DNA from: a virus
Length of the DNA stretch: 29,167 nt
Direction: 5' to 3' (one strand)
Virus record (IMG/VR): IMGVR_UViG_3300046616_000123
Location: 1-29,167 of that record
The notes below the pieces were generated by a model. That model was not told the DNA's origin, ran no database searches, and worked only from the letters and a program-made list of their open reading frames with translations. Both the position numbers and the translations under genes were made by a program. Below, piece by piece: positions 27,421-29,167 of the stretch. Numbering within the stretch: position 1 is the first letter of the stretch; each line of letters opens with the position of its first letter.

Positions 27421-27450
27421 AATGTACCTTGGCTGTAACACTTCCGTCAA
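27421..27450 (-). promoter_or_regulatory. pR'-like late promoter candidate
   Basis: On the minus strand TTGACG (27450-27445) overlaps the stop codon of the Q-like gene. After 18 bases comes TACATT (27426-27421), four of six matches to the -10 consensus. Transcripts would start near 27414 and run into three terminators, like lambda pR' and tR'. No other promoter is evident in the 363-base gap 27084-27446. Confidence 0.55.
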
Positions 27451-28424
27451 GAAATTTCTGTCGGTTCGGCAACACCATCTGCCACGAGCCTGCCGTCCAA
27501 CCGCGCGATCGCCATTTCCTCGAGCTCCCGCAGCTTGTTCTTCAGCTTGAACGACGCCCGCTGATACACCATGGGGTTGCCGCCGAACGACTCTGCCAGG
27601 TCGCGAAAGCTGATGTCCATCTTCTTGTGGTTGGCAAACACCCGACCCAGCATGCAGTCGAGTGCCAGCGGTTTGATGCGTGGGAACAGCGGCTGGAGCC
27701 AATCCGACAATCCCTTAATCGCATCGATTCGCTCTGCGGAGAAGGCGAAGCGTCGGCGAGGCTGGCTTGCCCCGTCAGTTGGCTTTCCGCTGTCAGTGAG
27801 GCTGCAACCCGACAGCCTGTCGAGCGCGATCTGCGCAGCGCGTTCGTGCGACTCGGCCGTCATCAGCTCGGCGCCAATGTCGCGCACCGAGTCGCGCGCC
27901 GCATGGTACTGAGCGCGCGCCGTCTCCTGCGTGGCCGCCCGCGTGATGTTCTTCTCGCAGGTCAGGTGAAACTCTCGCGCAGCTTCCAGCTCGGCGCGCG
28001 CCTGCTGCATCCTGGTGCGCGCGGATGACACCTTTTTCCGCTCCCGCTCAAGCGCGGCCATCAACTGCTGTCGGCTAACATCATCGTTGCCCACGTCCTC
28101 GAAATCCGTTTGCCCGAATTTCGCTTGCAGCACCCACATCTCCGGCGGCGGCAACTGCTTCACCGCCTGGGTGATCATGGCGCATTGCGCCCGGACCTCC
28201 GTGCTGGTCAACCCGCCGAAGTTGATCGATTCCGATGGCGCGCCTCGCAACTGGTCGAGCCATGTGCGCTGCTTTCCTTCCAGCCTGATCGACTCCAGCA
28301 CCCGGATCAATGCCTTGCGCAGGGGCGCGTCCTGCGTTGCCTCCTGCGACATCACCAGGAAGGCGACGTGCACCGCCTGCCCGGTGCTGCCGAATACTGC
28401 ATCCATTTCCAACCTTGCTCCCAT
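27447..28424 (-). CDS. Q-like late antiterminator candidate
   Basis: The 325-residue protein has an N-terminal part with DAPLRKALIRVLESIRLEGK and QAVKQLPPPEMWVLQAKFGQ. A long helical, basic middle follows (about 115-200). A C-terminal helix-turn-helix-like segment includes FRDLAESFGGNPMVYQ and LKNKLRELEEMA (about 270-310). This resembles DUF1133/Q-type antiterminators in outline. Position supports it: its stop overlaps a pR'-like -35 box, and three terminators and the whole late operon follow. Such a protein would load on polymerase near that promoter and let it pass terminators. It is longer than most Q proteins (about 200-230), so a different regulator such as a sigma-like activator remains possible. 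It begins directly after the stop of the 101-residue gene. Confidence 0.5.
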   Translation of the reverse strand: MGARLEMDAVFGSTGQAVHVAFLVMSQEATQDAPLRKALIRVLESIRLEGKQRTWLDQLRGAPSESINFGGLTSTEVRAQCAMITQAVKQLPPPEMWVLQAKFGQTDFEDVGNDDVSRQQLMAALERERKKVSSARTRMQQARAELEAAREFHLTCEKNITRAATQETARAQYHAARDSVRDIGAELMTAESHERAAQIALDRLSGCSLTDSGKPTDGASQPRRRFAFSAERIDAIKGLSDWLQPLFPRIKPLALDCMLGRVFANHKKMDISFRDLAESFGGNPMVYQRASFKLKNKLRELEEMAIARLDGRLVADGVAEPTEIS

Positions 28425-28730
28425 TCACTTCACCCCTTTCAGTTTTTCCCGCTGCTGCATGGCAGCGAATTTTGTGACCTGCTCGTCCTCTTGCTCCCCT
28501 GCGGGCCGGTTGACCACGTAGGGGTGTCCCCGCTTGTCCCACTGCACCCGTACCCTCACCGGGCTTGGCGTGCCGACCGTGTGCCCGTTCTCCTGGGCGA
28601 AAAACACCGGCTCGCCCTTCATCGCCTTTTTGATCTGGCCGTCGATCGATGCCGTCCCGAACGCCGCCCGCATTTCGTCGATCCATGCTGCCGTGACCGG
28701 CATCTGCTCCCGCATTCCGCCTTTCGCCAC
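28425..28730 (-). CDS. Hypothetical early phage protein
   Basis: The 101-residue protein starts at GTG 28730 with a strong GGGAGGTG ribosome-binding site. It contains WIDEMRAAFGTASIDGQIKK, a beta-type middle (GEPVFFAQENGHTVGT, VRVRVQWDKRG) and a charged helical end (EDEQVTKFAAMQQREKLKG). It is the first gene after the iteron region and is tightly joined to the Q-like gene (stop next to ATG). No family was recognised; a small regulatory or replication-accessory role is possible but not shown. Confidence 0.7.
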   Translation of the reverse strand: MAKGGMREQMPVTAAWIDEMRAAFGTASIDGQIKKAMKGEPVFFAQENGHTVGTPSPVRVRVQWDKRGHPYVVNRPAGEQEDEQVTKFAAMQQREKLKGVK

Positions 28731-28768
28731 TACACCTCCCCGTTTTGCTTTTCGTTTCTTTTTAGCAA

Positions 28769-28853
28769 ACCCTCAACATCCTCAACATACTGTCAACATG
28801 CCTAAGCTTTTGTTTTCGTTATGTTTATTGACTGTATTGAGACTATTGAGGGT
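28769..28853. repeat. Iteron module 1: two inverted clusters of 9-bp repeats
   Basis: Cluster 1 reads ACCCTCAAC (28769), ATCCTCAAC (28778) and, after two extra bases, ACTGTCAAC (28789-28797). A 29-base AT-rich spacer follows. Cluster 2 is the reverse orientation: ATTGACTGT (28827), ATTGAGACT (28836), ATTGAGGGT (28845-28853). Outer units are ACCCTCAAY and inner units end GTCAAY. The layout is that of an iteron origin or a multi-site operator. Confidence 0.75.
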
Positions 28854-28943
28854 TAAATTGAAATTGAGTCGAATTTAAATTCGCCGCCTCTTCTCTTGGC
28901 TTGCCTTTACTTGCGCTTCCGCGTGCGCGTGGAGCCTCAAAAA

Positions 28944-29026
28944 ACCCTCAATACCCTCAACACCGTCAATATTCCCTTTCCATTCATATACTTACGCTTG
29001 TTGACACTTGCTCGAATGTTGAGGGT
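28944..29026. repeat. Iteron module 2: second copy of the inverted iteron layout
   Basis: Cluster 3 reads ACCCTCAAT (28944), ACCCTCAAC (28953), ACCGTCAAT (28962-28970) as perfect 9-bp tandem units. A 29-base spacer follows, the same length as in module 1. Cluster 4 in reverse has GTTGACACT (29000), a degenerate TGCTCGAAT (29009) and GTTGAGGGT (29018-29026). Module 2 is offset from module 1 by 173 bases. The last unit runs into the stop codon of the gene at the window edge. The whole gap 28731-29025 has no other gene. Confidence 0.75.
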
Positions 29027-29167
29027 CAACCCTCCACATGACCGCCGCCACGATGCCGGTACGCCTTCAACTTGGTCTCGAACACCGAACTGGCGGCCTC
29101 GGCCCACTCGCGCAGGGTCTTGCCGGGCGGGTGATCACCCACCAGGAACACCATGCGCTGTTTCACC
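29026..29167 (-). CDS. Partial hypothetical protein at window edge
   Basis: The minus strand is open from the window end to a TGA at 29028-29026. The last residues read MVFLVGDHPPGKTLREWAEAA, then a helix with FETKLKAYRHRGGG, ending HVEG. At least 46 codons are present; the start may lie beyond 29167 or at an internal GTG/ATG. Codon use with G/C third positions is typical of the prophage genes. The N-terminal part is missing, so no function can be given; its place upstream of the iteron region makes a replication or regulatory role possible. Confidence 0.55.
   Translation of the reverse strand, partial: VKQRMVFLVGDHPPGKTLREWAEAASSVFETKLKAYRHRGGGHVEG

Follow-up and report, generated by a model that had tools for sequence, protein, structure and literature searches.

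A conserved array of 9-bp repeats directly 3' of a phage primase-helicase gene as a putative replication origin

The stretch of DNA analysed here, called the window throughout and belonging to a prophage of a soil bacterium, is a whole IMG/VR record and contig of 29,167 bp (IMGVR_UViG_3300046616_000123). It opens with a tRNA-Leu, the only match in an Rfam scan, and an integrase; a minus-strand structural module of lambda type follows, and the window ends inside a gene at 29167. Translation identifies the gene broken by the right edge as the C-terminus of a primase-helicase. Its stop codon (29026-29028) lies inside an array of short repeats, and the element described below therefore occupies the intergenic space that follows the primase gene on its 3' side (Table 1); most of the phage early region falls outside this contig. 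A search of known phages with the DNA of this region gave no match. The family of the 101-aa protein encoded downstream, which carries the pattern KG..MREQMP, is also found in phages with unrelated primases. The next protein (27447-28424; 325 aa, PHROG 17923) has some 90 aa inserted in its central part relative to its counterpart in a relative's locus (L010:6261-6968).

Table 1. Features of the repeat element and the adjoining genes in the window.
Feature	Position	Strand	Basis or remark
Primase-helicase (putative initiator), last 46 codons and stop	29026..29167	-	Translation; rest beyond contig end
Unit over last primase codons, beside stop (GTGGAGGGT)	29029..29037	-	Unit model
Cluster A outer unit, GTTGAGGGT	29018..29026	+	Unit model, strict-unit count
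Cluster A inner unit, GTTGACACT, 18 bp from A outer unit	29000..29008	+	Unit model, strict-unit count
Spacer 1, 29 bp	28971..28999	.	Spacer measurement
Cluster B, three tandem 9-bp units (28962, 28953, 28944)	28944..28970	-	Unit model
Alternating pyrimidine-purine tract, CGCGTGCGCGTG	28920..28931	.	Longest run of the region sits here in 50/50 loci
AT-rich stretch, 21% GC, candidate unwinding region	28855..28882	.	Base composition
Cluster C, three tandem 9-bp units (28845, 28836, 28827)	28827..28853	+	Unit model
Spacer 2, 29 bp	28798..28826	.	Spacer measurement
Cluster D, units at 28789, 28778 and 28769 (pitch 11 and 9)	28769..28797	-	Unit model
Downstream 101-aa gene	28425..28730	-	No Pfam or PHROG match

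The repeat unit was defined strictly as RTTGA[GC][ACG][GC]T, and ten such units fall within 28731-29030 while the remaining 28.9 kb holds three; dinucleotide shuffles gave a mean of 0.05 units and a maximum of 2, with none of 5000 reaching ten. The original prediction had described four clusters, both inner spacers exactly 29 bp long and an offset of 173 bp between two modules in an AT-rich region, all of which is present in the sequence, the region having the lowest GC content of the window (42% versus 64%). The range given for it, 28769-29026, takes in the clusters and leaves out the opposite-strand unit over the last primase codons (ACCCTCCAC), which together with the outer unit of cluster A forms a head-to-head palindrome.

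The last 46 codons of the primase-helicase gene (ending in VKQRMVFLVGDHPPGKTLREWAEAASSVFETKLKAYRHRGGGHVEG-stop) match a 954-aa homologue in one of the relatives (L010:2841-5705), which matches DUF5906 (E=2e-19) as well as VapE-like helicase and DNA-primase profiles. The gene product is classed as a Toprim/DUF5906 (SF3-like) primase-helicase and a putative initiator; the forecast that the cognate initiator would be encoded just right of the window thus holds for this candidate, the end of which is inside the window. The protein has a Walker-A SF3 helicase fold and a D5/NrS-1-like C-terminal region, as expected of the SF3/D5 type. When the C-terminal half was modelled (pLDDT 81), the best fold match was the C-terminal region (CTR) of the NrS-1 primase (E 1e-21), followed by SaPI5 Pri-Rep. 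The last 133 residues are modelled as H-H-H-E-E-H (pLDDT 87), and the best matches of this C-terminal domain, which are weak (best E 0.04), are DNA-bound winged-helix domains from replication terminator protein and from Orc1/Cdc6. The list of the best 50 matches for the domain model does not include 1KA8, the origin-binding domain of P4. The TIGR01613 profile for P4-family primases gave an E of 2e-5, below its cut-off, and an hhalign comparison of the primase-helicase with P4 alpha was not significant.

Scans of IMG/VR and of named genomes with the downstream gene and the primase supplied the relatives; from each locus we took the sequence that follows the primase stop and fitted the 9-bp unit model to it. 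The loci come from Massilia, Duganella, Janthinobacterium, Herbaspirillum, Solimicrobium, Paucimonas, Formivibrio and Tepidimonas. The element lies directly 3' of the primase gene in 47 non-redundant relatives, and both this fixed place and the layout are conserved: in the orientation of the primase gene, a unit over the stop is followed by cluster A, a spacer, cluster B, a middle part, cluster C, a second spacer and cluster D. In the relatives, cluster A has two units 18-19 bp apart, clusters B and C have three tandem units each and cluster D has three units with a pitch of 11-12 and 9. Spacer 1 measures 27-29 bp in 46/46 non-redundant loci and spacer 2 in 43/44, so that the length of the predicted 29-bp spacing is kept among relatives and its exactness is not. 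The middle part between B and C varies from 70 to 100 bp; it comprises an alternating tract and, ahead of cluster C, a stretch rich in AT.

Comparison of the spacers by in-register identity (gapped local alignment was without power) gave an identity of 0.467 between spacer 1 and the reverse complement of spacer 2 (0.253 when shuffled) and of 0.330 between the two spacers read directly (0.294 when shuffled), the reverse-complement likeness being the greater (Wilcoxon p = 6e-4). Across the family the modules are therefore mirror images. The proposed duplication thus stands insofar as there are two modules, which form a mirror pair across the relatives and not a direct duplication, although the window alone fits either arrangement. 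The suggestion that position in the cluster dictates the unit variant survives as a tendency and not as a rule in the counts across relatives, where the GAC-type inner unit is seen in cluster C in 18/23, in A in 9/24 and in D in 5/22, and the GAGGGT outer unit in cluster D in 15/22, in C in 11/23 and in A in 9/26.

The spacers of many elements also hold an 18-bp motif, AACCCGCATGRATRCTGG, which occurs with any iteron word and in either orientation (spacers of L026-L031, L035-L047, L053, L100, L103, L104, L005 and L008; further loci L120, L122-L125, L127-L129 and L150-L157); the window's own spacers are without it. It is rare in intergenic host DNA, with eight exact matches in 60 genomes of one family and none for the reversed control, and the host matches include a site upstream of priA in Paucimonas. 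At this Paucimonas site (L129) the spacer cores AAGTATTTGAATTTAAAGG and AACCCGCATAAATACTGG stand close together near a DnaA-box-like sequence. On a Formivibrio MAG contig (L123/L130) there is a further array resembling an origin; its word is GGGTAGGAT, it contains the spacer motif and it is without an alternating tract. We considered the spacer core as a host factor site and set this aside, its occurrences being rare and scattered; IHF sites in the spacers were likewise dropped, as a by-eye resemblance in some relatives.

The middle part of the element has a component that is absent from the original prediction. When each 340-bp region is searched for its longest run of alternating pyrimidines and purines, this run falls directly after cluster B in 50/50 loci, with a length of 10-32 bp and with letters that vary (CG, CA, TG and TA steps are all found). 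The run in the window is 12 bp long and nine runs in the window attain that length, so the evidence for the tract is its fixed place. Such a tract also separates B from C in Stenotrophomonas S1, in Pseudomonas Turba, LPPA56 and PG1, in Halomonas H4907 and in L005 and L008, and is absent there in Moraxella Mcat6, in P4 crr and in L123. As to what it might do, a Z-form or easy unstacking are guesses.

Three unit words occur among the relatives, GTTGAGGGT (type I), GTGATGGGT (type II) and GTGAAGGGT (type III), each with distinct primase C-termini. Within the primase C-terminal motif [ST][LF]X[ED]W, residue X is R or K in 25/26 proteins with type I units and A, S, G or Q in 19/19 proteins with type II or III units, and it pairs with unit position 4, which is G in type I and A in types II and III; the window primase carries TLREWAE, with the Arg typical of type I. 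One locus (L058) is an exception to this match. The match corresponds to 2-3 independent changes on the helicase-core tree and a tree-aware test was not significant, for which reason the covariation of residue and base is suggestive and not proven. A further locus (L045) has, after the primase stop (1620 onwards), the deviating word ATTGGGCGG / TTAGGCGG though its primase has the type I Arg, which could possibly be a further specificity.

The repeat word goes with the primase and not with the downstream gene, as exchanges in both directions show. In L005 and L008 the 101-aa downstream gene of the window is kept, the primase differs (a DUF5906 protein of another branch, or VapE) and the repeat words, GTTAACAGG and CCAACCTNN, differ from that of the window, whereas L035-L044 mostly have a different downstream gene and yet the same primase type and words. 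The 101-aa gene is thus retained or swapped without regard to repeat type. In named phages of Pseudomonas, Halomonas, Stenotrophomonas and Moraxella, the primases of which show 31-43% identity, an element of this kind again lies 3' of the primase gene and carries different words. This behaviour bears on the other function first suggested for the array, a cooperative operator with DNA looping; in this reading a repressor or activator bound to the repeats would control the late or structural operon that begins downstream. The element does lie upstream of the structural operon and its fixed-spacing iterons would suit cooperative binding, but the words change with the primase gene upstream and not with the operon downstream, and a promoter and terminator scan of the region found none, including no sigma-70-like promoter, so the operator is not favoured; in Turba and LPPA56, moreover, the element is followed by a short reverse-strand gene, a holin or unannotated genes. 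We regard an operator as very unlikely. Even less probable is a packaging site (cos/cosB) bound by the phage's lambda-type terminase, an idea that draws on the GpA-type terminase gene about 2.5 kb from the element and on the repeated terminase sites of lambda cosB; against it, the words co-vary with the primase, the terminase genes are several genes distant and several named phages with the element have adjoining lysis genes and not terminase genes.

Taken with its position, its conservation, the match of word and primase and its likeness to P4 crr and PICI origins, the element is very probably an origin of replication, or a cis region essential for replication, that is read by the phage's own primase-helicase, which supports the origin that had been proposed as one of two functions. 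The Toprim/DUF5906 primase-helicase would recognise the origin at the place where its own gene ends, with its C-terminal winged-helix-like domain binding the 9-bp iterons. The mirror pair formed by A|29|B and C|29|D would position two SF3-type helicase rings on either side of the central alternating tract and AT-rich stretch; this centre would open, and the loaded rings would then copy the DNA bidirectionally. Scans of nine longer contigs showed no GC-skew switch at the element, a result that is uninformative because gene direction dominates the skew. The layout recurs with other repeat words in dozens of phages. A broader proposal, which we put forward tentatively and hold to be somewhat doubtful, is that of a widespread undescribed class of origins in which mirror half origins load two head-to-head SF3 rings, the alternating tract is a separate working part and the word is swapped together with the primase C-terminal domain while the geometry stays fixed.

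The layout provides a sequence rule to locate origins in many temperate phages for which 'primase' alone is annotated, and it suggests a role in DNA recognition for the C-terminal domain beside NrS-1/D5-type helicases. The loci also form a natural series of matched initiator-iteron pairs in which origin specificity changes and geometry is kept, and the fixed alternating tract is a testable part of the element.

A literature search, mostly without subscription papers, found no paper describing these phage origins. Among known systems, lambda ori likewise has phage iterons beside an AT-rich stretch, and the string CCCTCAA occurs in lambda iterons too. The lambda iterons are inverted repeats inside gene O, the product of which is not a helicase, whereas the array here is intergenic with one unit overlapping the 3' end of a gene. 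The pri-rep-ori organisation of PICIs and SaPIs is closer, as E. coli PICI origins, which work in plasmids, are located 3' of rep and have iterons in two sets, one on either side of an AT-rich region (PMC6092414), as in the element; by published description they differ in the initiator subfamily, and the four fixed-spacer clusters and the alternating tract are found here. By fold and by profile, the helicase part matches the NrS-1 primase-polymerase best; that protein also has a C-terminal Tail domain, which its authors term novel and required for hexamer assembly (PMC7102993). The N-terminus of NrS-1 is a PrimPol, whereas the protein here matches other DNA-primase profiles.

The nearest known element is crr of the satellite P4. 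The array had been thought to have a geometry of no described element, and this claim fails since the annotated P4 crr (NC_001609) has nearly the same one. Like the element here, crr lies directly 3' of a primase-helicase gene (alpha in P4); it has two modules of 120 bp that are 180 bp apart, compared with an offset of 173 bp here, both share the module order > < (<) < | spacer | > > with 9- and 18-bp pitches, and the P4 word GTGAACAGT is the type III unit. In addition to crr, P4 depends on ori1 as a second site, and the element here might therefore be necessary and not sufficient. From this parallel comes the remaining alternative, an accessory cis region that the primase-helicase binds and needs while the strands open at another origin, as P4 replication starts at ori1 about 4.5 kb away; we consider it improbable, because the lowest-GC stretch lies within the element itself, together with a central alternating tract that crr is without, and because in PICIs a single such region 3' of rep is self-sufficient (PMC6092414). 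There are also differences from P4: the crr modules are direct repeats whereas those here are mirror images across the relatives, the P4 spacer is 35 bp long compared with 27-29 bp, and the initiator appears to form a subfamily distinct from P4 alpha, with no confident profile match to it. The new aspects are the mirror modules, the alternating tract, the occurrence in full-size siphophages and the co-variation of initiator and iteron.
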